DNA of 42,081 bases from Candidatus Woesearchaeota archaeon (GTDB taxonomy: Archaea > Nanobdellota > Nanobdellia > Woesearchaeales > JAGVYF01), in contig JAGVYF010000021.1 of NCBI GenBank assembly GCA_018303425.1, forward strand, positions 1-42,081, read 5' to 3'. A program made the translations under genes and the position numbers. The notes beneath the pieces were generated by a model that was not told the DNA's origin, ran no database searches, and saw only the letters and a program-made list of their open reading frames with translations. Below, one piece after another: positions 15,978 to 33,545 of the stretch. How positions within the stretch are numbered: position 1 is the first letter of the stretch; every line of letters begins with the position of its first letter.

Positions 15978-16946
15978 ATGAAACAATATTTAGATTTAGT
16001 CGATAGAATTCTTAAAGAAGGCGAACTAAAAGAAAATAGAACTGGTGTAAAAACTTATTCTATATCCGGCACAATTTTTGAACATGATATGCATAATGGA
16101 TTTCCTCTAATCACTACTAAAAAAGTTGCTGTACATGCTATTAAAGTTGAACTTGAAGGATTCATAAAGGGAATAACAGATAAAAAATGGTTTCAAGATA
16201 GAAAATGTAACATTTGGAATGAATGGTGCAACCCTGAAAAAGTACCTTATGGACATGATAAAGAAACAAAAATAAAAATGATGGAAGAACGCGATTTAGG
16301 ACCTATCTATGGCTGGCAATGGAGACATTTTGGAGCAGAATATCAAGGAATTAAAAATGAAGAAGATAATGCAGAGTTGCCTGATGTAAAATGCAGAAGT
16401 GATGTTGATTCAAATCAAGTACCACTTAACGCATCATTAGCTAATATGTTTGAAAAAGAAAGTTATAAAAATAAGGGCATTGACCAACTTGAAATTTTAG
16501 TAAAGAAACTTAAAGCTAATCCTGATGATAGGAGAATGATTGTTAGTGCTTGGAATCCGGAAGATTTGGATAAGATGGCTCTGCCTCCTTGTCATATGAG
16601 TTACCAAGTTACAGTTACAAATGGAAAACTTAATTTAATGTGGAACCAGCGTTCAGTTGATACTATGTTGGGTCTTCCATTTAATATTGCGAGTTATGGT
16701 ATTTTATTGCATCTATTGGCAAAAGAGGCAAGATTAAAAGAAGGAAGATTAGTGGGATTTTTAGGAGATACGCATATTTATGAGAATCATATTGAAGGAG
16801 CTAGGGAACAATTAAATCGAGAACCATATTATTTGCCAATTTTAGAAACTGAAAAGTTTACCTCATTATTTGATTGGACATACCAAGATACTAAATTTGT
16901 AAATTACGAGCATCATCCAAAAATAAAATTTGATGTAGTTGTATAA
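15978..16946 (+). CDS. thyA: Thymidylate synthase ThyA
   Basis: 322 aa. It methylates dUMP to dTMP using methylene-tetrahydrofolate. Visible signatures are NRTGVKTYSISG (R21 region), GPIYGWQWRHFGAEY at 108-122, the double Arg DDRRMIVSAWNP at 183-194, the nucleophile C205 in LPPCHMSYQV, QRSVDTMLGLPFNIASY, and HIYENHIEGAREQL. Compared with the E. coli enzyme (264 aa) the extra length sits mostly after the HFGAEY motif, at about 122-170, an acidic and Asn-rich insertion. The stop overlaps the folA start by one base (TAATG). It is the classical ThyA and not the flavin enzyme ThyX found in many archaea, matching the DHFR next to it. Confidence 0.96.
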   Translation: MKQYLDLVDRILKEGELKENRTGVKTYSISGTIFEHDMHNGFPLITTKKVAVHAIKVELEGFIKGITDKKWFQDRKCNIWNEWCNPEKVPYGHDKETKIKMMEERDLGPIYGWQWRHFGAEYQGIKNEEDNAELPDVKCRSDVDSNQVPLNASLANMFEKESYKNKGIDQLEILVKKLKANPDDRRMIVSAWNPEDLDKMALPPCHMSYQVTVTNGKLNLMWNQRSVDTMLGLPFNIASYGILLHLLAKEARLKEGRLVGFLGDTHIYENHIEGAREQLNREPYYLPILETEKFTSLFDWTYQDTKFVNYEHHPKIKFDVVV

Positions 16947-18881: not shown

Positions 18882-19829
18882 ATGATTATATCGGAAAATA
18901 AAAGAAAGGATTTAGAAAAACAAGGCTACCGAATTGTTGGTAATCATAGCGCAATTAAACTTTGCATGTGGTCAAAAAAGGCTATTAAGTGTGAAGATGT
19001 ATGCTATAAAAATACATTTTACGGCATTGAAACACATAGATGTGTCCAGATGACCCCTGCCTTACCTTATTGCGGGCATAGGTGCGTATTTTGCTGGAGA
19101 GATATAGCGTTTACTGAACCTAAATGGAACGGACCTGTAGACGAGCCTAAAGAAATTATCAACGGGTGCATTGAAGCCCAAGTTAAATATTTACAAGGAT
19201 TTGGAGGCAATGATAAAGCAGATCAAAAAAAGTATAAAGAATCTTTAAACCCCCTGCATTTTGCAATATCATTAAGCGGAGAACCAACTCTTTATCCCAG
19301 ATTGCCTGAATTGATTGATGAAATAACTAAAAGAGGAATGACTTCTTTTTTAGTAACAAATGGCACAAACCCTGAAATGCTAGAAAAAATAAAGGGACAT
19401 GAACCTACGCAATTATATTTAACATTGCCTGCCCCGGATAAAGAATCCTACATTAAAACTTGTCACCCTATTATTAAAGATTCATGGGAAAAAATACTGG
19501 AATCAATTAAAATATATAATAAAATTAATACACGAAAAACTATTAGACTTACGCTTGTTAAAAATATTAATTTAATCAAACCGGAAAAGTACGCAGAACT
19601 TTTCAAAAAGATTGAAGCTAACTTCTTTGAACTAAAAGCGTATGTATGGGTCGGACATTCAAGAAAACGGTTAGCTCAAGAATCAATGCCTATGCACCAT
19701 GAAATAGTTGAGTTTGCTAAAATGATTATAAAAAATTATCCTGATCTAAAAATAATTGATGAAAAGGCAGAATCAAGAGTCGTTTTACTTGCAAAAAAAG
19801 ATTTTAATGGAAGAATAATGAGATTCTAA
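18882..19829 (+). CDS. taw1: 4-demethylwyosine synthase Taw1 (TYW1)
   Basis: 315 aa, a radical-SAM enzyme that condenses pyruvate with N1-methylguanosine 37 of tRNA-Phe to make the tricyclic wyosine base. The SAM cluster Cys are C64, C68 and C71 (PYCGHRCVFCWR). A second cluster is provided by C28, C41 and C54, whose spacing equals that of the Methanocaldococcus enzyme shifted by two. Other motifs are FAISLSGEPTLYPRL, FLVTNGT, and the C-terminal LKAYVWVGHSRKRL region. There is no flavodoxin domain, as in other archaeal versions. The coding end overlaps the convergent pilin-like gene by 4 nt. Confidence 0.96.
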   Translation: MIISENKRKDLEKQGYRIVGNHSAIKLCMWSKKAIKCEDVCYKNTFYGIETHRCVQMTPALPYCGHRCVFCWRDIAFTEPKWNGPVDEPKEIINGCIEAQVKYLQGFGGNDKADQKKYKESLNPLHFAISLSGEPTLYPRLPELIDEITKRGMTSFLVTNGTNPEMLEKIKGHEPTQLYLTLPAPDKESYIKTCHPIIKDSWEKILESIKIYNKINTRKTIRLTLVKNINLIKPEKYAELFKKIEANFFELKAYVWVGHSRKRLAQESMPMHHEIVEFAKMIIKNYPDLKIIDEKAESRVVLLAKKDFNGRIMRF

Positions 19830-20308
19830 CAAAGGTCTAAACTTGCCTTAGCTAGAGTTATCTGGGTCGGCAAGATTTGTTCGTAATGTTCATATGTTTT
19901 GCACGTTTTAGTTTTGATTTCAAGACCTTTACTGACATAATCTGCATCTTGCAATTCTAAAATATCAAACTGATAATCAATGCCCCACTCGGCCAAAGTC
20001 TGTTCAAGGATAATTCCAATCTGACCTTGTAAATACTCGCAGGAATTTTGAGTTGAACATGAAATAGCTGCGCCGTCAACACAATCAGTAATTAATTCCG
20101 ATATTTTAAGTTGTTTGCAGGGAGTGGTTGTTTTTAATAAAGTGTTCAAAGTATTGGCTCCTATTTCGGTCCTTGCGACATCAACTACAACAGACCGGGA
20201 ATTTAAGGGAGGGATTAAATTTATAAAAAAAATTGTGCCTGCCAACAAAACTAATATCACAACTGCAATTCCTAAAATTTCTATCTGCGCTCTCTTTGAA
20301 TAATGCAT
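19826..20308 (-). CDS. Pilin-like signal-anchor protein (last gene of surface cluster)
   Basis: 160 aa from ATG 20308 (MHYSKRAQIEIL). A longer start at 20356 would overlap the upstream gene by 8 nt and add 16 residues before the charged n-region; the shorter start gives a normal prepilin signal. KRA followed by QIEI and a hydrophobic stretch (about residues 12-30) matches the archaeal class III/prepilin signal cut between A and Q. The rest is extracellular with seven Cys, three in CSTQNSCEYLQGQIG and DLC-end positions, suggesting disulfides. Part of a block of five similar membrane proteins; the processing enzyme is not in the window. Assignment to pilins is by signal type and context only. 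Confidence 0.65.
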   Translation of the reverse strand: MHYSKRAQIEILGIAVVILVLLAGTIFFINLIPPLNSRSVVVDVARTEIGANTLNTLLKTTTPCKQLKISELITDCVDGAAISCSTQNSCEYLQGQIGIILEQTLAEWGIDYQFDILELQDADYVSKGLEIKTKTCKTYEHYEQILPTQITLAKASLDLC

Positions 20309-20348
20309 ATATAATCTAAAATGATTAAATTTTTTTAATTTTTGACAT

Positions 20349-20828
20349 TTAACCATACACGTTCACTTCCAGTATTCCGTAATTATAAATCTTATTAATA
20401 GGGTCATATATTGAAATAGGGATTGAAAAAGTATCATTGTTTGAAAATAAGGGTTTTACTTTATTATAGAGTGTTACACCAAACATTTCAGGATAAATTG
20501 ATTGAGTTTTTATTGTGCTATACCCTAAAATCCTAAAATAATAATCTTCATTAGCTGTATCAGACATTATTAACCTTGCGCTATTCATTCTTAAAATATC
20601 TATGCAATGATCTTCCAGTACATTATTTCTTCTGCATTGAAACTCAGGGAGCAATGCGATTTTAGTTGCCAGCTGTACGGCATTTCTGGTCTTGAACTCT
20701 GAAACTTGTTCTTCAATTGAACCAGATTGGAATGCCATAAAAAAAATTATTACGATCACTATCAATACTAAAAATATAACTAGTACTCCGATATTCTCGA
20801 CCATTTTAAGTTGAGCTTTTTTATTCAT
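20349..20828 (-). CDS. Pilin-like signal-anchor protein
   Basis: 159 aa. MNKKA, then QLKMVENIG, then a long hydrophobic segment (about residues 15-31, VLVIFLVLIVIVIIFFM). The charged, A-Q junction followed by E is like a class III prepilin signal. The extracellular part (EFKTRNAVQLATKIALLPEFQC onward) has a Cys pair and ends in strands IPISIYDPINKIYNYGILEVNVYG. Starts 1 nt after the stop of the preceding gene. The related N-termini of the neighbours (KKAQ, KRGQ, KRAQ) indicate one set of coordinately inserted subunits. Function not recognised. Confidence 0.7.
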   Translation of the reverse strand: MNKKAQLKMVENIGVLVIFLVLIVIVIIFFMAFQSGSIEEQVSEFKTRNAVQLATKIALLPEFQCRRNNVLEDHCIDILRMNSARLIMSDTANEDYYFRILGYSTIKTQSIYPEMFGVTLYNKVKPLFSNNDTFSIPISIYDPINKIYNYGILEVNVYG

Positions 20829-20829
20829 C

Positions 20830-21846
20830 TTAATAGATTGGCGGACAAGAGTGCAGTGGCAACTCTTCGTTATTCGCTTTTATTTGATTAATTAAAGTTT
20901 TGATATTATTAAGATAAGATAATACATCTTCTTCTTTTTCTTCAATAAATGACGTTGAAGATAAAAAGCTATATAAATTTGCAGCTGCCGGATTATACCT
21001 CTGATTACATACAGGAACCAAACTTTTGAGAGAAGATACTCTTTCGCTGATAATGTATGCTAATTGTTCATACCTTTTTATTGCCTTGCTTAACATACAT
21101 TCATAATATTCTGCATTATCCACCATAATAGAAGCTATCAAAGTAGCATCGTCAAAGAAAACACTGGAAGGATTTAATTTTAATTCAAATTTATTGACCC
21201 CTGGCAATTTTTCATAAAAAGAAACAACACCATTAGCATTAATTTTTAGCGCATTAACTCTAAGATTAATAAAAGAAGGGTGTAAGGATTCAGGGTCCAT
21301 ATTAAGAAAAATAAATTTAGTTATAGTTCCTTCTTCCTGTAAACTTGAAGAAGATTTAACAAATTGTTTAGTGATATGTTCCGATAATAATGCTTCAATC
21401 TTAAGCTTCAAAGAGTTAGAAGCGCCAGCCTCATCATGCACAAATACATATTTTATATTTGAAGTTGTAATAAATAAAAAATTGGAGATAAAAAAAGGCA
21501 TGTTCCAGGGCATAGACCACACAATTAAAGGTTGAATATTAAGAGTTGAAGGAGCAAAGGTTAAACGCTCTTCAAAGCCCCCTGTTAAATCTCCTGATGA
21601 ATATCCTTGGCAATTAAAAAAAAGTTCTGAATTAGGAAGGTTAGGTATTACTGCTGAAGTATCACTGCTCAGGCCCATTCCGGAAAAAATAGAATTTAAG
21701 CTAGTAATCAGAGTTGCTGAAGCTTGTTTTTCAACTGTTCCCTGAATCCTATAAATAACAATTGCAAAAAATAATAATATAACTGAACCGGCCATAAGCA
21801 CAAATATCCAATTTATAGGAGTTTCAACCTGTCCTCTTTTAAACAT
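20830..21846 (-). CDS. Pilin-like signal-anchor protein, long form
   Basis: 338 aa. MFKRG, then QVETPINWIFVLMAGSVILLFF: the KRG-Q junction and the E at +3 resemble a prepilin signal, and the hydrophobic segment (about residues 12-30) contains the recurrent NWIFVLMAG word. A coiled, extracellular stretch follows (VEKQASATLITSLNSIFSGMG), then a large alpha/beta domain and a helical C-terminus (EEKEEDVLSYLNNIKTLINQIKANNEELP) ending CPPIY. Much longer than a pilin, so it could be a scaffold or adaptor. It lies 88 bp after the upstream 159-aa gene and 1 nt before the next. No known domain seen. Confidence 0.65.
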   Translation of the reverse strand: MFKRGQVETPINWIFVLMAGSVILLFFAIVIYRIQGTVEKQASATLITSLNSIFSGMGLSSDTSAVIPNLPNSELFFNCQGYSSGDLTGGFEERLTFAPSTLNIQPLIVWSMPWNMPFFISNFLFITTSNIKYVFVHDEAGASNSLKLKIEALLSEHITKQFVKSSSSLQEEGTITKFIFLNMDPESLHPSFINLRVNALKINANGVVSFYEKLPGVNKFELKLNPSSVFFDDATLIASIMVDNAEYYECMLSKAIKRYEQLAYIISERVSSLKSLVPVCNQRYNPAAANLYSFLSSTSFIEEKEEDVLSYLNNIKTLINQIKANNEELPLHSCPPIY

Positions 21847-21934
21847 ATTAAATTTTTAAGTTATTATAGTTTATATTATTTATGTATAAAACAAGGTTAT
21901 CCTAACAAAAAAAGGAAAGATAAATAAGATTAAA

Positions 21935-22414
21935 CTATGGCATGGAAAGAAGCGCAGATTTGCCTTTGCCTGCGATTTGCAGTTTAAAAAAACCAGAAGG
22001 AATTTCCACACATAAAGGGGAGGTTTCAAGCGCGATTTTTTCTATTTTTAAATCCTTTTCTTGTAACGGAAATAAAAATACATTAGCAACACCATTATTT
22101 ACAGAGTCGCATATAAGCGCCTCATCTCCTGCTAATTCAGAAGACAGCGCACACTCCTTATTAAATTGAAAAAAACAAATTTTGTTAAATTTTAAAGGTA
22201 AAGTGAATTCAGGGACTCTAATAGTACCAGGTAATGAAGAAATTTCTTCAATTTCTTGCATTAAGCGCTTTTCAAATCTTAAATACATAACAGCTTCTCC
22301 CCTGTCAGTTAAAGATTTAATAGCATCATAACCATATATCAGAATTAATGCACCTAATACAAGCGCAAGTAAATATACCATGATATCTGCAGGAGAAAAA
22401 GCTTTGCGGTTCAT
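21935..22414 (-). CDS. Pilin-like signal-anchor protein
   Basis: 159 aa. MNRKA, then FSPADIMVYLLALVLGALILIYGYDAI: a charged start, an A-F junction and D at +5, with the hydrophobic helix at about 10-27. This variant has F in place of the Q seen in the sister proteins. The rest (KSLTDRGEAVMYLRFEKRLMQEIEEISSLPGT) is an extended helix followed by strands with three Cys. The ATG lies inside the last codons of the 1986-aa gene (4-nt overlap), so translation is coupled with that giant protein. Partnership with it is the main functional hint. Confidence 0.65.
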   Translation of the reverse strand: MNRKAFSPADIMVYLLALVLGALILIYGYDAIKSLTDRGEAVMYLRFEKRLMQEIEEISSLPGTIRVPEFTLPLKFNKICFFQFNKECALSSELAGDEALICDSVNNGVANVFLFPLQEKDLKIEKIALETSPLCVEIPSGFFKLQIAGKGKSALLSMP

Positions 22415-25400
22415 TTTCTTTTTTTCTTTTTGATTGTGCTAGCATTGACAAATTTACCCAGCTCATCAATTGAACTTTTAGAATCTCTCCTAAATGAAGT
22501 AATCTTGCTCAATTGTTCAAAAACCTCCTCAGATTTACTACTTTTTGTCTTTCTTAAATTTGTAGCCTTTTCAAGCAAATGAAATAAGTCATGTTCTTCT
22601 TTTTTAATGAATCGGCTTAATTTATCAAATATTTTGCCTTTAGTTGTTTCCTCAAGAGATTTAAAAAGCTCGCTGCCTGTTTTTTTAGAGTACTCAATGG
22701 GTTTTTTTGGAATAATAATCCGCTTAATTGGTTGTATTCTCTGTTTAGGCATAAAAGTATATGAACCTTGACTTGGCACTAAATATTTTAGATACACAAA
22801 ATAACTTAAACCCCCTAAAAGCGCTATTACTAAAAATAAGAATAATATTGTATTAAATATATTTGATTCCTCCTCAATAATTAAAGGTATGACTGAAGTA
22901 TTATTAACAAACCTTGATATTAAAATGCACCCATTATTATCAACAGGTTCGCCAAGTGGAGTATTTGGACATAAATCCAATTGATCCCGCACCTTATCTC
23001 CATCCTCATCTAAATATCGCTGAATTTCAGAACAGCCCTCTTTATCAACAACTGCGCCCTCTAAAGTATCTTTACATTGATCAGCTCTGTCAAATATACC
23101 ATCATTATCAGAGTCTCCAGCCTGCACATCAATTTTTTCTTGCTTAGTTGCGCAATTACCGACCGAATCACAGGCCTTTCCGCAAAAAAATATTGATTCA
23201 GATAATTCTATCTGCCCACTATATTGATTAACCGGCGCGCACCCCAGTTCGGACGAAGTACCATATTTTAATGAAGCAGCATCACAACCGGATTCATCAT
23301 TACATACTAATAGTACATTAACCCCTGCAGAAGAGGGCAGGACTCTAAATACAAGATTAGGGACTTTTCTTTCTTTACATTCGGGGTCAAGACTGGTCTT
23401 GATAAAAATAGGACTGCTTTTTTTAGATAAACTTTTTAATCCGGCCCCATTTACTGCTACTGCAATTATTTCGTATTTTTTACTGCCGTTTTTGCTGTTA
23501 GTTGAACTTAAATCAATGTTAAACTGCGGGTCATTAGAAGTTTGGTTTGCTAAAATTGTTGTTCCTTTATCGTCAATAACATCAAAGTTATATGATGCAA
23601 TTTTACTTTCATTGTCATTTGCATTAAAAGAGATGCCTAATTTAGATTTATTTCCAGCAGAGCAACTATAATTTCCTCCTGAAACGGATAATAAATTAGG
23701 TTTACTAACATCAATTGTAAATGTATATGTTAATTCAGCAATTTCCGGATTTGATAGTGCCCCTGTTAAACTTGTAATTGTACTGCATTCTAAATCTATT
23801 GTATGAGTAACCGGTTCAAGCCTTCCAAGTTTATAGCCATGGGATAAAGAATTACTGCTTATTACTTGCCATCGTCCGGAAACATTTTTGTATTTACAAT
23901 CTGCAACTTCATTAGTCGTAAAATTTAAATCAATAAATCTTTCTGAAGTATATACAGGAGGACTTTGCACTTCAATATTAAGCACCTGTTCCTCTACTTT
24001 AAAATCGATATTTTTTTTACTAGTAAGTTTACCTGATAAATCTTCACATTGCACATAATAGGTTTCTGTTCTCGGCCGGGCATTGAAAGGCAGAGGTTTA
24101 TAATGAATTTTTTTATATGAATCAGATACGTCTTTGCTTTCACCCGGGAAATAACGCATTTGATCGTAACTAGCGGAAGTTGTGCTAAACTTGCAAATGG
24201 TGCTCTGTTCATCTGTTTCAACCTGCAACTTTGAATTAATTCCTTGCTGGCTTACAATGGGCGGATCTGCAACTGCTTTTATGATTTCAGGAAAAGTAGT
24301 GTCAACTTTTAAGATAAACGCCTGTTTAACTACGCTTCTGCCATCATCGCATATTATATAAAATGGCTGTTCATTAACCACTGTGAAACTTGACTTTTTA
24401 TGTTGAAGAACACCAGTAATATCAAAATTCAATAATAATGGAAACTCAAAATTAGTCGGTTCTATAAATGAATACTTACAAGACGCAGGCCATGTTGTCC
24501 TAGCTCTTAATTCGATATTTGCCTGTCCGGCCACTCCGTGATGAGGACTCTCTAAAATAATTTGAGTTTCTAAAACATCAATACCAAATCCAATCTCATA
24601 ATCAAAAAGAGGAATATTATTTAAAGTGTCATTTGCATTTACATATAATCTATAGCAACCATTTGATAATGGTTCAGATACAGTAAATCTAAATGTCCTA
24701 TCATTTAATCTTGTTACATTCATCTGAATATCAAAATTTCTTAAGCCATACCTAATTAATTCAGTGGGCTCATCATATATTACAACAATTACCGGCAATG
24801 GAGTTTTAATTATTGCGCCGTCAGAATTTTCTAATTCATAACTTGAAGGCACTGGTCCTTGTTTATCAATTAAAAATGAAAAAGTTTTTGTATATTGTTT
24901 TCCTTCGACATTTGTGCCAATAAAGTATAATGTTGTTTCAAGTTCTGCCCCGTCTAACATTAAAAGTGAAGGGCTAATTTCAAATTTTTGGTTTATAATT
25001 GGAACTTCAATTTTTTGTGAACCTATAAAGTACCATAACCTTTCTAAACCAGAAACTGTTCCGTTGATATATATATCTGTATTTTTTAATTGATACACGC
25101 TTTTACCATTGAGTATTGAAGAAGAAATGATTGCATCTCTGTTTTTTACTTCTGTTAGAACTATACTTGCGGGAGCGGTTCCAACTGGTTGTTGGCCACT
25201 AACTTGAGTATTAATATAAAAGAGGCTTTGTTCATCCAAATTTTCATTAATTCTCCACCCATGCTCTGCCATCGCATCCATTTGAAAAATACCCCTTGTT
25301 ACCAAATTTGTAAAAGATGAAGGATTTAGATATGTTTGCCAAACGGTTTTGTCAGCAGAATTTGGATAGGGGGTAGGTAATACATGTGTTCCCCCATTTG

Positions 25401-28371
25401 CTAAAATAAACCCAAATTGGTTAAACTTTTCAATGGGTTTTGAAGAAATAATTTGAATAATATATGGCTCTTGAGAACTCCTAAGTATTGTCCTATCTGG
25501 CGCAGGCAATCCGCTCCCCGTATCAATAATTGCAATTGCGACTTGGGGCAAAACCTTGTCAATTTGAATTGTATTTGTCTTTATAGTCTCAGAATTCCCC
25601 CCCGAATCAACAGAATAATAACTAACTGGGGTTGTTTGACCAAGTGAAATTGAATTTAAAAAACTTGTAATGGGATTACATCCAGTTCCAGTGCAATAGA
25701 AGGTTTGAGCGCAACCAAACTCAGAACTATGTCCTTGCTTTCTCTGCGCAGGGTCCTGACAGTCAAACATTAATTCAAAATCGTTATGCAACCAGTCGGC
25801 TGTACAAGTTTGAGATGCGCCCCTTATATTAGTTATTGGGCTTTTTTGATCAATAGTAAACCTTATTTCGTCATTTTCTGAACCAATAATTGCGCCAGTT
25901 TCAAGTAGTTCACATTTTACATAGAATTTATGATGAGACTTTAAAGGAGAAACATCAACAGTTGCAGTATGCAATAAATTGTTAGTGGTTTCAAATAAAT
26001 TTGTCATATGCGCATAACTATTTATACTATCACTGTACTTACAAGTAGCAGCTCTTACGCTAGTTATACTTAATTGAATATTTTCATAATAGTTTAATGT
26101 TCCGGTGGGAGATGGATTAATTAAACTCATGTCCCCATGAACATTAATTAAAACATTATCCGTTTTAATATTGCCGGACCTGTCACTGCATTCATAATTA
26201 AAAACATGATAACCGTCAGGAATGCCAGTGTAATGAATAGTTTTATCAGAAATTAATTCATCAATGATTTCATCTACCGCATTAAATTTGGTATTACCTT
26301 GTAAAAGACTACCTTTGCAGCTTACTAAAGTATCTGCATTGTCTCTCGCCGAAATTGTAATGTCTACCTTAGACGTCCAGTTATCTTCATCATTTTCTTG
26401 AGGAGTTGAAACATATGAAACATTTACGCTTGGTTGTTCTCCATCAACATAAAACTTAAAACTTTTAACCTCTTCAAGATTTTTGGATTTATCTACGGAA
26501 TAATAAGTTAATGTATAAAAATCGCTATCTCCTATTACTTTTGAAAATTTGCTTCCTGAAGCGGGTATAGTTGGATAGGTCCAGTTTTTTTCAATTGCGT
26601 AATATGTGATAGTGTCAGTACCAGAATAAAGGTTATCAAAAACTGAAAAACCTATTTCAATATTTTGCGGCGTAACGGGGGTATTAGCAACTATAGTTAT
26701 AGGTGCCACATTATCAGATTGGCAATCATAATCTGTTTCAGCGCAATCCCTTAATAAATTACCATCTGCATCTTTAATACATCGGCCAATCCATTTACAT
26801 GTTCCTATTCCGAATATATCCTCGCTTCTGTTCAGTATCCTGTTAGTTGCTGAATCAAGTTGTATGCCGACAAATTTTGAACCGGTGCAATCTTCTTGCG
26901 TTTTATAATCAGCGCACCCTATCTGAGTACTATCAATACATGCATTTGGCGAGTCTATCCTATTTGTATAACGGCACTCTTCTCCGACTAAATCACATAT
27001 ATTAACACTGCATCCTCCCAATAAGGCATTTGATGGAGATATACACTTACTGCAGTCTTGATATTCTGCCTGAGAAGGACGGCACACCCCTATTCCTAAT
27101 TCATCTTGTTCAGATGTTTGCCATTCACAATCGGATACCCCGCAGGTATTTTGTCCGCAAGAACTTTGACTTTTATAATCATAACAAGAGGTTATTTGCA
27201 TACATTCATTATATGTATCAACACTAAATCGCGAATAGTCTAAATAACATGACGCATACGAACATTGCGGCAGGAAAAATAAACCAAAAGGCGTTGCGCA
27301 TTCGCCGCAATTTCCCCGAGGATTGCATGAACCAGATATGCAGACGGCATTGGTTTGAAGGTCACAATTAAAAACTCTCACAATTTGATTTTGAAGATTG
27401 CATCTTGCTTCATAATTCTCATCGCAAAATTGATTAGTGATTGAAGCAGAATTTAATCTAACGCATAACTTATCCATTGCGCCAACAGTCAGAACATTAG
27501 AATACTTATTCACAGCGTTATTTGTTGAATCATAATAAAAAGCTCTAACCCTATAAGAATATGCATTATTATATGCAATAGCCGAATCAATATGGCTTCC
27601 ATTGGTTATACCGGACTTTATAGGATACCAATCACATAACAATGGATCCTCAGAATTACACCTTTCAAGAATAACATTAGTAGGCTGGCAGTTTGTTACT
27701 GGAAATGACCATATTAAACGTATTGCTTTTTGTCCGGAAATTGCTTGTGCCACCTGCAAATTTGCAGAAACCGGATTTTGACTGCAGCTTATTGGACAAC
27801 GGCATGCATTAACTGTACCAGATGCTCCGCAATTTCCCGCGCAATCAGATAAAGCCCCTTCTGCCTTTGTATCTAAAGTGCCGTCACAAATTTCATAAAA
27901 ATCAATTTGGTTATTTCCACATAAAGTTTGATAAAATAGGGGCGTTGGTTGGGGAGGAAGCAATATTGTTAAATTATTCAGAGTTTGATTAAGGATTGTT
28001 AGATTTGTTGGAGTCGTCGCGCCTGTATCTACAGTTAAATTAGGTTCTTGTTCAATAATGCCACATATTTCGTCGCACTCGGTTTCACCGGGATAAAAAT
28101 TAACTTGAGAACATTGATTACGTACCACGCTTAATATACTTTGCCCGGGGTCACAACAACAGCCAGTATCGCAAAGATCGGTCTCAACAGCCGAACATGC
28201 CTGGTTTGGATAAAAAAAAAAATTTCCTATATCTGTACATTCCTCTCCAAGCGTAAATTGACATCCATTAGGACTAACGCAACAGCCTTCTACTGCTAAA
28301 ACTGAATCTAAATTTACTAAAAATGTAAACATTAATACAAAAAATAATATAATCATTCCCTTTTTTTTCAT
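22411..28371 (-). CDS. Giant Cys-rich membrane-anchored surface protein (1986 aa)
   Basis: Signal peptide at 1-26 (ends DSVLA, then VEGCC). A Cys-rich head follows (about 27-190, CC and CCC clusters), then an FN3-type domain (about 195-295, with IRLIWSFPVTNCQPTNVIL). More Cys-rich modules reach about 550, then many Ig-like or beta-sandwich repeats to about 1700 (recurring DKQGP, ID-like and CKYS words). Two thrombospondin type 3 calcium repeats come near the end: DSDNDGIFDRADQC and DEDGDKVRDQLDLCPNTPLGEP. A membrane helix spans about 1840-1865, and a basic cytoplasmic tail of about 121 residues ends KKKKRK. It would be an extended adhesin-like or scaffold protein. It is coupled to a pilin-like gene by a 4-nt overlap. 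No enzymatic domain is visible. Confidence 0.8.
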   Translation of the reverse strand: MKKKGMIILFFVLMFTFLVNLDSVLAVEGCCVSPNGCQFTLGEECTDIGNFFFYPNQACSAVETDLCDTGCCCDPGQSILSVVRNQCSQVNFYPGETECDEICGIIEQEPNLTVDTGATTPTNLTILNQTLNNLTILLPPQPTPLFYQTLCGNNQIDFYEICDGTLDTKAEGALSDCAGNCGASGTVNACRCPISCSQNPVSANLQVAQAISGQKAIRLIWSFPVTNCQPTNVILERCNSEDPLLCDWYPIKSGITNGSHIDSAIAYNNAYSYRVRAFYYDSTNNAVNKYSNVLTVGAMDKLCVRLNSASITNQFCDENYEARCNLQNQIVRVFNCDLQTNAVCISGSCNPRGNCGECATPFGLFFLPQCSYASCYLDYSRFSVDTYNECMQITSCYDYKSQSSCGQNTCGVSDCEWQTSEQDELGIGVCRPSQAEYQDCSKCISPSNALLGGCSVNICDLVGEECRYTNRIDSPNACIDSTQIGCADYKTQEDCTGSKFVGIQLDSATNRILNRSEDIFGIGTCKWIGRCIKDADGNLLRDCAETDYDCQSDNVAPITIVANTPVTPQNIEIGFSVFDNLYSGTDTITYYAIEKNWTYPTIPASGSKFSKVIGDSDFYTLTYYSVDKSKNLEEVKSFKFYVDGEQPSVNVSYVSTPQENDEDNWTSKVDITISARDNADTLVSCKGSLLQGNTKFNAVDEIIDELISDKTIHYTGIPDGYHVFNYECSDRSGNIKTDNVLINVHGDMSLINPSPTGTLNYYENIQLSITSVRAATCKYSDSINSYAHMTNLFETTNNLLHTATVDVSPLKSHHKFYVKCELLETGAIIGSENDEIRFTIDQKSPITNIRGASQTCTADWLHNDFELMFDCQDPAQRKQGHSSEFGCAQTFYCTGTGCNPITSFLNSISLGQTTPVSYYSVDSGGNSETIKTNTIQIDKVLPQVAIAIIDTGSGLPAPDRTILRSSQEPYIIQIISSKPIEKFNQFGFILANGGTHVLPTPYPNSADKTVWQTYLNPSSFTNLVTRGIFQMDAMAEHGWRINENLDEQSLFYINTQVSGQQPVGTAPASIVLTEVKNRDAIISSSILNGKSVYQLKNTDIYINGTVSGLERLWYFIGSQKIEVPIINQKFEISPSLLMLDGAELETTLYFIGTNVEGKQYTKTFSFLIDKQGPVPSSYELENSDGAIIKTPLPVIVVIYDEPTELIRYGLRNFDIQMNVTRLNDRTFRFTVSEPLSNGCYRLYVNANDTLNNIPLFDYEIGFGIDVLETQIILESPHHGVAGQANIELRARTTWPASCKYSFIEPTNFEFPLLLNFDITGVLQHKKSSFTVVNEQPFYIICDDGRSVVKQAFILKVDTTFPEIIKAVADPPIVSQQGINSKLQVETDEQSTICKFSTTSASYDQMRYFPGESKDVSDSYKKIHYKPLPFNARPRTETYYVQCEDLSGKLTSKKNIDFKVEEQVLNIEVQSPPVYTSERFIDLNFTTNEVADCKYKNVSGRWQVISSNSLSHGYKLGRLEPVTHTIDLECSTITSLTGALSNPEIAELTYTFTIDVSKPNLLSVSGGNYSCSAGNKSKLGISFNANDNESKIASYNFDVIDDKGTTILANQTSNDPQFNIDLSSTNSKNGSKKYEIIAVAVNGAGLKSLSKKSSPIFIKTSLDPECKERKVPNLVFRVLPSSAGVNVLLVCNDESGCDAASLKYGTSSELGCAPVNQYSGQIELSESIFFCGKACDSVGNCATKQEKIDVQAGDSDNDGIFDRADQCKDTLEGAVVDKEGCSEIQRYLDEDGDKVRDQLDLCPNTPLGEPVDNNGCILISRFVNNTSVIPLIIEEESNIFNTILFLFLVIALLGGLSYFVYLKYLVPSQGSYTFMPKQRIQPIKRIIIPKKPIEYSKKTGSELFKSLEETTKGKIFDKLSRFIKKEEHDLFHLLEKATNLRKTKSSKSEEVFEQLSKITSFRRDSKSSIDELGKFVNASTIKKKKRK

Positions 28372-28474
28372 CTATTTACCCGGTCCATATTATTATAAAT
28401 ATATAACAAAATTATTCTTTATATAACTATCGCTTTTATTATTTCAATTTATCAAAATAAAATACACTCATTTT

Positions 28475-28555
28475 TCGCCAGTATATAACTAATAATGTCA
28501 GTGAGCTTTTGACATCTCACCAGAAGCAAAGTTACGAGATATGTCTATCAAAACC
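28475..28555. other. Intergenic stretch with short words shared with the IS remnant
   Basis: TCGCCAGTATA (28475-28485) also occurs beside the transposase remnant (about 9265-9275). TTACGAGATA (28532-28541) recurs in reverse orientation near 8733-8742, with a weakly similar sequence beyond it. A small hairpin GTGAG...CTCAC lies at 28501-28520. It may be the trace of an insertion-sequence end in the 213-bp gap between two surface genes. No gene is visible here. Confidence 0.2.
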
Positions 28556-28584
28556 AGACGCCCCTATAATCTAAAAAATCGAAT

Positions 28585-29736
28585 TTAAATTTCAAATTCC
28601 ACTCTCTTCCTTGCTCTAAGTCCATAAGGATCTTTAATTGTAATTGTAACCTCGTGCCTTCCTGGACCAACTAAAATAGGTTGCATATAAAAAGTGCCAT
28701 CTAGTTCATTAAAAGCAGAATTATCAATTGTAATCTCTAATGCATCTTCATCAGGGTCAAATATAAAAGGAGTGATTTCAACTCTATTGGGAAAAACAAT
28801 TACCGCAATATCAAAAAAAACCGGCGGCCTATTTTCTCTCACAAATTTAAAACTATAGGCGTGACCATCAATAACAGATTTAAAATCAGTAATCTCAATT
28901 AAATCCCCATCGATTTCTGTAGAAGCAATATCATTAATTACTTTTACATAAAAACCCTCATAATATTCTTGTAATTCATTGTAATTATTTAATATATCAA
29001 AATTAGAATAGGAAACCTCTGATTTGGTCAATGCTTTAATAAACTCATGAAACTTTTCTAATCGGATATTAAATTCTTGATTAAATACTTTTAATTCAAA
29101 AATCTGATTATCTATGGTATAATTAATTGGAAAATATAAATTAAATAAAATATTTGAATTTCCAATGATTGTTTCAGCAATCGGTAATTGGTATTCCACG
29201 CCTTCAAAAAGAGTATCAAGTTTACTGCACTCTATTATTTTTTGTTCTATATATGCATCCAATTGTTTTTGTATTGAACCTGTTCTTGCATAAGATAAAC
29301 ATGGTTGAAAGTTTTCGTTCCTCGCATTTAAACCTTCTGAATTACAAAGGTTGGGAATTTTGTCTCTTCCAAAAAAAGGAAATAATGTCGATTCTTGTCT
29401 AAAAGGAAATGGAATAACCTTTCCCGAAGGAAGCGGCTGATTAGATATACCCACTAAAATCCTATTTCCAAGATAATTAATTTTTTTATCTTCTTCTGTT
29501 AAAAAAATCTTGCCTCCTTGATTTCCGATTAAAGCCAGTCCATCAGTTGCAGTCCGTTGTAAACATTTGGTTACATATGACGTTAATAATGTATTTTTTA
29601 ATGCTGACTGTGTTGAGGTAACTAAACTATTATTTTCCTGAATAAAAGTTGTAAGAACATAAAGAAATAAAAAAATCATAAGAATAACTGCGCCTAATAT
29701 AATAAATACCGTTATTTGTGACTTTTTTTGGAACAT
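28585..29736 (-). CDS. Pilin-like signal-anchor protein with C-terminal beta domain
   Basis: 383 aa. MFQKKS, then QITVFIILGAVILMIFLFLY: a charged n-region, S-Q junction and long hydrophobic helix (about 8-30), again of prepilin type but without the usual E. A helical linker follows, then a mixed domain with Cys (VTKCLQRTATDGLALIGNQGGKI). The C-terminus is a beta-sandwich like a cadherin or PKD-type repeat (PPVFFDIAVIVFPNRVEITPFIFDPDEDALEITID ending DPYGLRARKRVEFEI). It starts 5 nt after the stop of the 1267-aa gene, so both are in one transcript. The FDPDEDALE stretch suggests calcium binding. Confidence 0.65.
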   Translation of the reverse strand: MFQKKSQITVFIILGAVILMIFLFLYVLTTFIQENNSLVTSTQSALKNTLLTSYVTKCLQRTATDGLALIGNQGGKIFLTEEDKKINYLGNRILVGISNQPLPSGKVIPFPFRQESTLFPFFGRDKIPNLCNSEGLNARNENFQPCLSYARTGSIQKQLDAYIEQKIIECSKLDTLFEGVEYQLPIAETIIGNSNILFNLYFPINYTIDNQIFELKVFNQEFNIRLEKFHEFIKALTKSEVSYSNFDILNNYNELQEYYEGFYVKVINDIASTEIDGDLIEITDFKSVIDGHAYSFKFVRENRPPVFFDIAVIVFPNRVEITPFIFDPDEDALEITIDNSAFNELDGTFYMQPILVGPGRHEVTITIKDPYGLRARKRVEFEI

Positions 29737-29741
29737 TTTCC

Positions 29742-32700
29742 TTAATTTTTGGTAACAATAACTTGAGCTAAGTTAAATTGGCCATGTTGATTAACTGCAA
29801 TCAGTGAAATAGTTTTAATGCCCGGTGTTTTAAATAATAAATAAGCAGGACCTTCATACTGCACCCCTTTAAATTCCCCATTTATAATTTCGGAAGAATC
29901 AGTATCCCAATAATAAGTTACACCATCCTCTGGATTCGCAACCCTCAAAATAATATTATCATTATAAAAATATCCTGTTCCAGATAAAGGCAATTCTATC
30001 TCGGCGTCAGGAGGACTAAAACTTGTAAATGTTTTTGAATTTAACCTTAGCGCAGAAGTTGCATACTGCCATATTTCTTCAAATGAATCAATATTAGTAT
30101 TAAATGAAAATAGTTTATAATTTGCATAACTTGAATCCGGATCTGAAATAATAGGTTGGCAAAAAACATTTATTTTATTTACTAATTTGCAGACATCTGT
30201 TTTAAATCCATTATAGTCAACAGACATAAACAAATGTTCAGGGTCTGGCTGTTCAAGCACCCCTAAAACCTCTTTACTCCCTAATTTTGAAAAATAGAGT
30301 CTATTAAAATCCCTAACCCCTGTAAAAAACTCAGCGCCTTGAATTTCGCCCCTTATCCCTCTTAAAATCGGCCTAATTACCGATAAAATTAATTCAATCG
30401 CTACATCTAATGGATCTTTTATGAAAGAAATAAAAAGTTGATCACCAAATATGCTATCTATATAAACATTATTTTTTGAATAAATGACAGTGTTATATTC
30501 CTCATTATACCAAAGTTTGTTGTTACCATTAACACATCTCCCATAAACATCTCCTTCTGCTTCAAAATCATTACAATTTAAATCAACTAACCCGGCAAAT
30601 TCTTCTAATTTATTTGCATTTAAAGACGTTCCAAGTATAACCTTACTGGATGTTTTTAATACACAAAAATTATTTGCGCCTCCTTCTGATAAAAATGTTG
30701 CAAGAGTAGGATCATCCAAATAAGGCAAAGTATTTTCAGGAGTATCGCAATATAAACTAAATTCATTAGAAGATTCTTTTTCGGCCTGTTGCAATAATTT
30801 AGTTGCTAAAATTTTTGTTCTGGTGCTCCAGGTACCATCCTTACAATAAAAGTCCCCGGCTGATTCTTCTTCAAATACACATCTTTCACCATTCCAGCAC
30901 GTAGTTTGTTCAGGACAATAAGCTGAAGACGAACCGTCCCATTTTTCAGCCAAATATACGTCTGTCCAAATGCCGGAACTGTCCCTATCTAAAACACACG
31001 CTTGCAAAACTGGATCTCCAAAATTTCCTCCTGCAAGTAAATCAAGAGAAGTTGTTTCTTGTATTCCTGAACTTGCATCAATACATGCTCTGCCTGTCCA
31101 ACACTGAGAATCTGCACAACAAACGCTTTCAATATTATCAGGAGTTGATTTTATTGTGTCTCTAGCTACAACATTATAAAGACCATATAATTTTTTAGAC
31201 CATTTGCCATTTGGAGAACATACATACCCTTCAACAATATTACAGGAACTCAAACCAACAGGATTTACTATTTTACTAAAATCTCCGTGAACAACTGAGG
31301 TTTTTGAATCTGAACACGAAAGTAACCCATTTGAACTGTACAATATATCGGCATCTTCTGAATTCGGATCAAAATCTGCAACCGCAGTTCCTTCTTCTAA
31401 TAAATTTCCATTCCAACAATAATTATTACCATCTTGATAGTATTCATTAATATCATCACCGCAACATTGCGTACCAGACCATAAATTTCCAGGAATAGAG
31501 TTACATGCACTTTCATCTGAATCAAGATCATTTATCCATAAGTTTGGCCTCGTAGCTGAATTATATGACTCCCCACTGCAAACGAAATCAGTCCCTTCTT
31601 TTACTAAATGCATTTTATCTATAAAAATTAAATTATGATAATTAACTGAACCTATTGAGAAATCAGAACCATCCTCTGCAGATGCTTGTTTATTTACTCT
31701 TAATTCGATAATATTAACCTCATTATTGCTTATAATCTCATTTACAGGGATTCTAATTTTTATCCATTTTTGTAACCCTTGGCCATTTGAAGAGTATTGA
31801 GAATTTAAAATTGGCTGATTAAACAATGTTTGATAATGAGAGCCTTCATTACCATTTGTGTTTTGTAATTTTTGACCGCCAATATATAACTCCAGATTTA
31901 AATCATCTACGGCATATACAAAAAATTCAATATAATCAAAACTTGACCAGTCATTTAATTTTGAATCTGCTAAAAAGCTCCCAACAGGATTTTTATCATT
32001 AAGAAATATAGATAAACTATACACGTCTTCTAAATAGCTTGTTCTTAAACCCCAGCCATACGGCCCGGGCTGACCTGCTGAAGATGTAAATTCTTTGATC
32101 GTATTTAAAAATGAACCCGGCAGTCTAAACTCATTATTATCTTTATTAACACAAAGTAAAGCATCTGGACAACATTCTATAAATCTTGAATCTATATCTT
32201 CTTTGGCGCAAATAAATCTTGCAGCAATCTCTCTATTGTCAATCGTAGTAGTTTGCCCTACCGACGTATGAGGAACTCCTGTTCCTGTCGCGGAAGCCTG
32301 AATTGAAGGAGAAATTCCGCTTTGCAAATACTCCTCCCAGTCTAAGCTTGTAGCAGTTGATGTATCTGAAGAAGGACCAATACCGGGAGAGGATACAGTC
32401 AACTCTCGAGGAGCAGGATTTTGTAGCCGCCCTCCTTCGGGCAATTGTATTCCATTCTTCGTGTCTGGAACTAAAGAATTTGCATCACATGTATGCCAAT
32501 AATCTCCGTTAGATAACATTTCATATTCAAATGTTTGCATATTATTATCAATATTTTCCGCAGTAAATATTTTAAAAACTTGGCCGGATAATAATTCCTC
32601 TCTTGTATCCATCCATTGTCCTCCATAGCAGGCTATAGTATTTAATGATACAATTCGCCCTGTATCTTCTTGACCATCATCACCGCAACAAGATTCAGCA

Positions 32701-33545
32701 GATAATTCCGGATTCCACGAATTTGTGCCGCATCTGTTACATTCGGCTTCATTTTGATCTCCGTCATTTTGCCAGTCTTGTGACAAATCTAAATCATTAA
32801 AATAAAATTTAGAACCTTCTTCTCTTAATCTGCACCCGTCGTCAATCCTGATTACATTAACTGGAACTGGTTCTTCTTTTCCATACAATTGGCTTTCATA
32901 ACACACTAAACGACCATTACTAGTATCTGATTGCATGGTTACCCCGTCATAACAACACCGACCATCTGGATCCCCTGCGCTATTCAATGCTCCTCTTATA
33001 TCTGCGCAACAAACCCCCTGTTCTGAAAAATATGTTGCAGAATCACAACTTCCTAAAGTTCCGCATTGCACGTTGCCATTAACTTTTAAATATGCTGCAA
33101 AAGAGGGAGGAGTATAAGAGTAAGGCGCAGGAGAAGAAATAGGATAATTACAAAAAGGCAAAGAAGTAGGGAAAAGATCTGTAATATGTAGAGAGGAGGG
33201 TTCAAATTTAGTTTCGATATTTATCGTGCCAGTACTCCCTTCCGGAATATGCTGAGCATATTGGGGCTGCTTAATACGACACCACAAATCTAATTGCGCT
33301 GCGCGATTATTTTGCAATGAATCGTACTCTGCTTGAGAAAGGCACCTGCCCCCAACTAAATTATTTGAAGAAGAACAAGCTCCTTGAACCCAATATGGAT
33401 CTAAACATTGGTTATGACTTAAATGATTAAAATAAGTTACAGGCGCGCCTATTGCAGACCAAACAGAATATGTTTCTGCAGAAACTAAAGAAGATAAAAG
33501 GGAACCAAATAATAAAAATATTAAAATTATTTTACAATTTTTCAA
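29742..33545 (-). CDS. Giant secreted Cys-rich surface protein (1267 aa)
   Basis: Signal peptide at 1-23 (ends LVSA, then ETYSVW). It starts at TTG 33545, with GGGG about 12 nt before it. The body has dozens of Cys in short modules such as CCADI, CCYDG, CCGDD, CCADSQCWTGRACID and CPEQTTCWNGERC. These look like small disulfide-stapled repeats with WNG or W.GRAC words. A jelly-roll-like region near 500-640 (YIEFFVYAVDDLNLELYIGG) and a PKD-like domain at the C-terminus (about 1180-1267, YYWDTDSSE and GIKTISLIAVNQHGQFNLAQVIV) complete it. No C-terminal anchor is seen, so it is secreted or held by partners. First gene of the surface block. Confidence 0.75.
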   Translation of the reverse strand: MKNCKIILIFLLFGSLLSSLVSAETYSVWSAIGAPVTYFNHLSHNQCLDPYWVQGACSSSNNLVGGRCLSQAEYDSLQNNRAAQLDLWCRIKQPQYAQHIPEGSTGTINIETKFEPSSLHITDLFPTSLPFCNYPISSPAPYSYTPPSFAAYLKVNGNVQCGTLGSCDSATYFSEQGVCCADIRGALNSAGDPDGRCCYDGVTMQSDTSNGRLVCYESQLYGKEEPVPVNVIRIDDGCRLREEGSKFYFNDLDLSQDWQNDGDQNEAECNRCGTNSWNPELSAESCCGDDGQEDTGRIVSLNTIACYGGQWMDTREELLSGQVFKIFTAENIDNNMQTFEYEMLSNGDYWHTCDANSLVPDTKNGIQLPEGGRLQNPAPRELTVSSPGIGPSSDTSTATSLDWEEYLQSGISPSIQASATGTGVPHTSVGQTTTIDNREIAARFICAKEDIDSRFIECCPDALLCVNKDNNEFRLPGSFLNTIKEFTSSAGQPGPYGWGLRTSYLEDVYSLSIFLNDKNPVGSFLADSKLNDWSSFDYIEFFVYAVDDLNLELYIGGQKLQNTNGNEGSHYQTLFNQPILNSQYSSNGQGLQKWIKIRIPVNEIISNNEVNIIELRVNKQASAEDGSDFSIGSVNYHNLIFIDKMHLVKEGTDFVCSGESYNSATRPNLWINDLDSDESACNSIPGNLWSGTQCCGDDINEYYQDGNNYCWNGNLLEEGTAVADFDPNSEDADILYSSNGLLSCSDSKTSVVHGDFSKIVNPVGLSSCNIVEGYVCSPNGKWSKKLYGLYNVVARDTIKSTPDNIESVCCADSQCWTGRACIDASSGIQETTSLDLLAGGNFGDPVLQACVLDRDSSGIWTDVYLAEKWDGSSSAYCPEQTTCWNGERCVFEEESAGDFYCKDGTWSTRTKILATKLLQQAEKESSNEFSLYCDTPENTLPYLDDPTLATFLSEGGANNFCVLKTSSKVILGTSLNANKLEEFAGLVDLNCNDFEAEGDVYGRCVNGNNKLWYNEEYNTVIYSKNNVYIDSIFGDQLFISFIKDPLDVAIELILSVIRPILRGIRGEIQGAEFFTGVRDFNRLYFSKLGSKEVLGVLEQPDPEHLFMSVDYNGFKTDVCKLVNKINVFCQPIISDPDSSYANYKLFSFNTNIDSFEEIWQYATSALRLNSKTFTSFSPPDAEIELPLSGTGYFYNDNIILRVANPEDGVTYYWDTDSSEIINGEFKGVQYEGPAYLLFKTPGIKTISLIAVNQHGQFNLAQVIVTKN

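Follow-up and report, generated by a model that had tools for sequence, protein, structure and literature searches.

A conserved block of pilin-like and cysteine-rich giant proteins as a candidate type IV filament module in Nanobdellota

What would an archaeon build from five proteins with pilin-type signals and two giant, cysteine-rich proteins when none of the genes beside them encodes the machinery that assembles pili? The locus that raises this question lies on contig C21 (JAGVYF010000021.1; C-numbers denote contigs of the same genome) of a Candidatus Woesearchaeota archaeon, whose genome of 937 kb is assembled in 39 contigs and is 96% complete. The window analyzed here is the whole of this contig, 42,081 nucleotides (nt) in length. 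Seven consecutive open reading frames (ORFs) on its minus strand, at 19826–33545, encode five proteins with a prepilin-type signal and two Cys-rich giants, an arrangement of seven genes in one direction that the first-pass annotation of the window had already described. We named these genes P7 to P1 in order of transcription (Table 1). Our preferred reading, held with moderate confidence, is that these genes form a module of minor pilins and adhesins belonging to a Nanobdellota type IV filament, one that is built in trans, most likely by a divergent machine encoded on contig C8. DPANN archaea are widespread, and the structures with which they grip are, to our knowledge, largely unknown. The DPANN archaea that have been brought into culture to date all grow attached to hosts (Hamm et al. 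2024, PMC11291902).

Pilin-like proteins and conservation of the block

The N-termini of P1–P4 and P6 each carry a short basic stretch, then Ala, Gly, or Ser followed by Gln or Phe (RAQ, KAQ, RGQ, KAF, and KSQ), and then a hydrophobic helix, the same series of elements that had been noticed at first pass. In its strict form, this signal pattern was matched by four of the seven block genes, whereas it occurred in none of the 31 other ORFs in the window; P2 falls outside the strict pattern because its helix contains Glu and Asn. The signal and the hydrophobic N-terminal helix of all five proteins were retained across alignments of 16–39 relatives. The alignment of P1 also suggests that the true start of this gene may be the ATG at 20308.

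P2 and P3 were the two proteins folded with AlphaFold2, from alignments of 35 and 39 sequences, respectively. The P3 model (mean predicted local distance difference test score (pLDDT), 90.4; predicted template modeling score (pTM), 0.86) consists of a helix at residues 8–59, followed by a beta-rich head and C-terminal helices, and the P2 model (pLDDT, 93.3; pTM, 0.74) of a helix at residues 3–58, followed by a beta head. Both predicted structures have the layout of a type IV pilin, with a helix that runs into a head, as the first-pass annotation had expected of pilin-like proteins. Foldseek comparisons of the two models with the PDB gave no match at E ≤ 0.001, and PDB sequence searches with profiles of P1, P2, P3, P6, and the small QGLSLN-type pilins described below returned chance matches only. 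No Pfam family was found above the cut-off in any of the seven block products, and the NCBIfam scan of the same products also gave no match above its cut-off. We consider it likely that the P-proteins are subunits of a type IV filament of some kind.

Comparison of gene neighborhoods showed that the block is strongly conserved in related genomes. Relatives of P3 were found in 111 of the 145 genomes of the order with a single-sequence search and in 220 of the 279 genomes of the phylum with a profile search. When contig records were searched, the single P3 sequence gave no match and the P3 profile did; the records of the P3 relatives were nearly all assigned to Candidatus Woesearchaeota, Nanoarchaeota, or Nanoarchaeia, the rest being unclassified archaea and two records that seem to be mislabelled. 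Both the suspected DPANN origin of the block and the recurrence of KRGQ..NWIFVLMAG proteins among related genomes, to which the first-pass annotation had pointed, were thus borne out. Among 40 loci of the order (Candidatus Woesearchaeota), relatives of P1 were found in 37, of P2 in 38, of P4 in 35, of P6 in 27, of P5 in 23, and of P7 in 14, the last two counts being underestimates, because they come from a single-sequence search and some of the stretches stop short of these genes. P3-P2-P1 were contiguous in 37 of these loci and P4-P3-P2-P1 in 32, and a gene of at least 500 amino acids, usually Cys-rich, was located immediately upstream of P4/P3 in 35 of 39. The same order (giant, P6, giant, P4, P3, P2, P1) was seen in other families of the class, where P4 was undetected in some and where relatives of P6 were also present.

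From P1/P2 to P6/P7, the junctions between the genes of the block measure −8, +1, +88, −4, +213, and +5 nt. The earlier statement that most of the genes overlap or lie 1–5 nt apart is borne out at four of the six junctions, the two longer ones being the exceptions.

In many relatives, P1 is followed downstream by one to four genes for proteins of approximately 80–130 amino acids, in which the motif K-A-Q-G-L-S-x-N-x-I-I-I-A-A is combined with a short head that is rich in Cys and has CC at its end. These QGLSLN pilin genes were found downstream of the block in 17 of the 40 loci of the order. The window contains none, and the genome under study has one, standing alone on C3 (L150:8023–8385). The QGLSLN proteins are probably the major pilins.

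The genes flanking the block are housekeeping genes, identified with Pfam as those for RNase P p30 and a radical-SAM wyosine-type enzyme, together with one for a TtcA-like protein, which was assigned by reading its sequence. The p30 and TtcA-like genes were also found near the block in several relatives.

Table 1. Genes of the block in order of transcription; slashes mark the presumed cleavage position in the prepilin-type signals
Gene	Position in window	Strand	Length (amino acids)	Features
P7	29742–33545	−	1267	First gene of the block; start codon TTG; secreted and Cys-rich (47 Cys), with signal peptide
P6	28585–29736	−	383	Candidate modular pilin; prepilin-type signal KKS/QITVF; beta domain of DPDED type at the C-terminus
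P5	22411–28371	−	1986	78 Cys; signal peptide; C-terminal transmembrane segment at ~1841–1859; Lys-rich cytosolic tail
P4	21935–22414	−	159	Pilin-like, RKA/FSPAD; alignment of 33 sequences
P3	20830–21846	−	338	Pilin-like, KRG/QVETPINWIFVL; marker gene of the block
P2	20349–20828	−	159	Pilin-like, KKA/QLKMVENIG
P1	19826–20356	−	176	Pilin-like, KRA/QIEILGIAVV; conserved Cys in alignment of 36 sequences

The two giant proteins

Cys accounts for 3.9% of the residues of P5 and 3.7% of those of P7, compared with 1.1% in 21 other proteins of the window, and the description of both giants as Cys-rich stands. The first-pass annotation had also read FN3, immunoglobulin (Ig)-like, TSP3, and PKD-like modules in them. 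In the window copies of P5 and P7, the matches to Big_13 (Pfam, E = 0.022) and to TSP3/OmpL47-like families (NCBIfam) fell below the cut-off. Among the relatives of P5, Pfam matches above the cut-off were obtained for Big_13, an Ig-like domain, and CarboxypepD_reg in L035, and for TSP3_bac in L049, whereas no Pfam module exceeded the cut-off in the P7 relatives that were scanned. Accordingly, the Ig-like and TSP3 modules were recovered above the cut-off only in relatives of P5, and no confirmation was obtained for FN3 or PKD.

In P5 and in many of its relatives, a signal peptide stands at the N-terminus and a transmembrane (TM) segment toward the C-terminus, together with a cytosolic tail, which is often rich in Lys. 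In several genomes, the P5-type giant is split into two genes. The relatives of P7 are secreted, and several of them end in W-x-D-L-T-x-K-L-R. In L055 and L062, P3 or P4 seemed to be fused to a giant; these fusions were rejected as artifacts arising from runs of N in the assemblies. Pfam gave no match to a PilY1 domain in P5, P7, or their relatives. We infer that the giants are adhesive.

DUF2341, a domain tied to PilY-type pilus adhesins (Makarova et al. 2016, PMC4858521) and a mark of the adhesins of clade 1 euryarchaeal pili, is also absent from P5 and P7 according to Pfam. In the window, it sits in a separate gene on the minus strand at 4–2598, open at the window edge, whose product, a further large surface protein, combines this domain (E = 9e-7) with a lectin-like Laminin_G_3 domain (E = 2e-25).

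Assembly machinery elsewhere in the genome and alternative explanations

No ATPase, platform protein, or prepilin peptidase is encoded among the seven genes of the block, which, as had been concluded at first pass, differs from the standard operons for an archaellum or a type IV pilus. Searches of the genome, run one family at a time, located all three kinds of component elsewhere. A Peptidase_A24 gene, the only one in this genome, was found on C2 (E = 1.5e-13), and ATPase/platform loci were found on C31, C33, and C8, none of them in or adjoining the block. C33 has an ordinary ATPase/platform locus with three QxxxE pilins (L094:273–2021), a set distinct from the P block, and C31 has an ATPase gene and two platform genes without pilin genes. 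On C8, a third, divergent ATPase of 786 amino acids, resembling GspE2, CpaF, and FlaI, is followed by a protein of 739 amino acids with eight predicted TM segments, which was not recognized by Pfam. Because the assembly parts are encoded elsewhere in the genome, a type IV filament that is put together in trans is likelier than a non-pilus coat. The first-pass interpretation survives in part: the pilin-like architecture is supported for P2 and P3, a filament has become likelier than the suspected surface coat, and attachment is a presumed function.

The ordinary platform family, PF00482, was found above the cut-off in 119 of the 145 genomes of the order, namely in 90 of the 111 P3-positive genomes versus 29 of the 34 P3-negative genomes. 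Twenty-one genomes of the order have P3 without an above-cut-off PF00482 match, and Peptidase_A24 is kept in all 21. Given these 21 genomes and the similar frequency of PF00482 with and without P3, we rejected the idea that the block needs an ordinary PilB/PilC pair. The idea that the 21 genomes are devoid of any platform protein was also rejected: their weak PF00482 matches, which adjoin a gene for an ATPase of 750–790 amino acids, are orthologues of the 739-amino-acid protein of C8. In the C8-type loci taken from 19 of the 21 genomes, orthologues of the C8 ATPase were present in 18 and orthologues of the 739-amino-acid protein in 17, mostly in adjacent positions. The C8-type pair is thus the strongest candidate for the motor that serves the block, because it is kept in nearly all of the block-bearing genomes that have no ordinary platform protein.

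In many of these genomes, the C8-type locus is accompanied by between one and three small proteins with five TM segments, as well as by a pair of soluble proteins rich in coiled coils. The coiled-coil-rich proteins of C8 itself (L096:13095–13619 and 16307–16861, both on the plus strand) look cytosolic, because neither a signal peptide nor a TM segment was predicted in them. Many genomes have tandem five-TM proteins of 180–215 amino acids (MATFLDxGLL..FPFLLVF) flanking their C8-type machine (L139:9658–10819, L140:8976–10715, and others). In two relatives, a minus-strand gene beside that of the C8-type ATPase (L149:6565–7554 and L153:5–481) encodes a protein whose N-terminal anchor is like that of P6. 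The L149 copy has an HEFGHTFG metallopeptidase motif and a weak Peptidase_M6 match, and the L153 copy consists of the first 159 amino acids only. This protein was not counted as a tie between P6 and the C8 machine, the similarity being mostly in the hydrophobic N-terminus.

Under the preferred reading, a filament assembled in trans, P1–P4 and P6 would enter the membrane, where the A24 peptidase of C2 would cleave them ahead of Gln or Phe, the peptidase and the sites both being present. Their N-terminal helices would then pack into the filament, the main subunit of which would probably be a QGLSLN-type pilin, and assembly would be powered most likely by the C8 ATPase/platform pair, as the retention of this pair without an ordinary platform suggests. 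P7 and P6 would display disulfide-rich adhesive domains, and P5, held by its C-terminal TM segment, may be a surface protein that the filament passes through or docks on. The module would work in the manner of the bacterial minor pilins with PilY1 and of the Thermoproteales pilus loci described below. Contact with other cells or surfaces would be the likely use of such a filament.

Several points weigh against this scheme. The filament is a prediction from genes and models, and the heads of P2 and P3 have no match among solved structures, so that their kinship to known pilins rests on the signal and the layout. The block and the C8 machine were adjacent in none of the genomes examined, and the link between them rests on elimination among P3-bearing genomes. 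The two ordinary ATPase/platform loci of the genome could serve the block as well. Finally, the C-terminal membrane anchor of P5 speaks against a simple tip role for this protein.

The prepilin-type segments might instead serve only as anchors, with P1–P7 forming a static complex, S-layer-like or adhesive, in which no ATPase ever drives polymerization. Such a coat would fit a block without machinery that encodes two disulfide-rich giants, one of them membrane-anchored, and it would fit the observation that the ordinary PF00482 platform does not track P3. However, five pilin-type subunits, two of them with pilin-like models, are encoded in one conserved operon, QGLSLN pilin genes adjoin the block in many relatives, and the peptidase and the divergent ATPase/platform pair are kept where the ordinary platform is missing. 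We therefore regard a static coat as unlikely.

It is also improbable that the same type IV filament module is built by the ordinary loci of C31 or C33 rather than by C8. The block is present in the 21 genomes without an above-cut-off PF00482 match, and C33 has QxxxE pilins of its own, even though sharing between machines is possible and C31, with an ATPase and two platform genes but no pilin genes, needs pilins from elsewhere. A type II secretion-like pseudopilus exporting the giants or other cargo is very improbable. The four minor pilin-like proteins, one of them large (338 amino acids), are like GspH-I-J-K in number and size, and the giants are secreted, but the giants carry signal peptides of their own, P2 and P3 have no structural match to GspH–K, and most archaeal lineages have no outer membrane. 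Although class III signals are found in archaellins too, an archaellum or its remnant is scarcely conceivable and already contradicted, no block product having an archaellum family above the Pfam cut-off and the block being without an ATPase and ArlH/ArlJ.

Comparison with known systems

In bacteria, a set of four minor pilins is capped by PilC/PilY1 (reviewed in PMC10191384). The block resembles this set, PilHIJK (FimU/PilV/PilW/PilX) and PilC/PilY1, in combining four minor pilin-like proteins and giant adhesin-like proteins in one operon, but no sequence or structural homology to the minor pilins or PilY1 was found, and P5 has a C-terminal membrane anchor. The pilus loci of Thermoproteales subclade 4G (PMC4858521) share with the block two large proteins (of which one is secreted and the other has a C-terminal TM segment), a number of small candidate minor pilins, and many conserved Cys residues. 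This likeness is one of layout, and the ATPase and platform genes in our case lie outside the block.

Among the DPANN archaea, the dark-matter pilin islands (Makarova et al. 2019, PMC6393860, Fig. 2A) likewise encode signal-peptide proteins without similarity to known pilins and have been read as diverse pilins beside an ATPase, TadC, and surface proteins. Whereas these islands were called from adjoining machine genes, the P block stands apart from such genes and is defined by phylum-wide gene families. A description of the P block was not found in the full text of open-licence papers, supplementary files lying outside that search.

Two conserved DPANN pilus loci have been reported, and in the passages of Hamm et al. 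(2024, PMC11291902) that describe them, locus 2 consists of CpaF, TadC, and coiled-coil proteins, with no filament proteins listed; the same passages liken the coiled-coil proteins to viral attachment proteins. Locus 2 occurs in the lineages considered here (cluster 2 DPANN, Woesearchaeota among them), and in gene content the C8 set, with a CpaF/GspE2/FlaI-like ATPase, a platform protein, and two soluble coiled-coil-rich proteins, fits its description. The P block differs in being a separate locus, which those passages do not mention in their description of locus 2. More tentatively, and with some doubt, we propose for these DPANN archaea a phylum-wide filament of the type IV class but of an unrecognized kind, which would combine tiny Cys-rich QGLSLN major pilins, five new families of minor or modular pilins, two disulfide-rich giants, and a divergent locus 2 motor, and which would grip host cells. 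For a DPANN pilus machine without known pilins, the P block offers specific and widespread candidate subunits and adhesins, and what the motor builds therefore becomes directly testable. Nanoarchaeal type IV pilus ATPases have similarly been reported without identified pilins (PMC4858521). There, as here, an ATPase/platform module is apparently served by pilins encoded elsewhere, and the difference is that the P block and the QGLSLN pilins are now candidates for those pilins.

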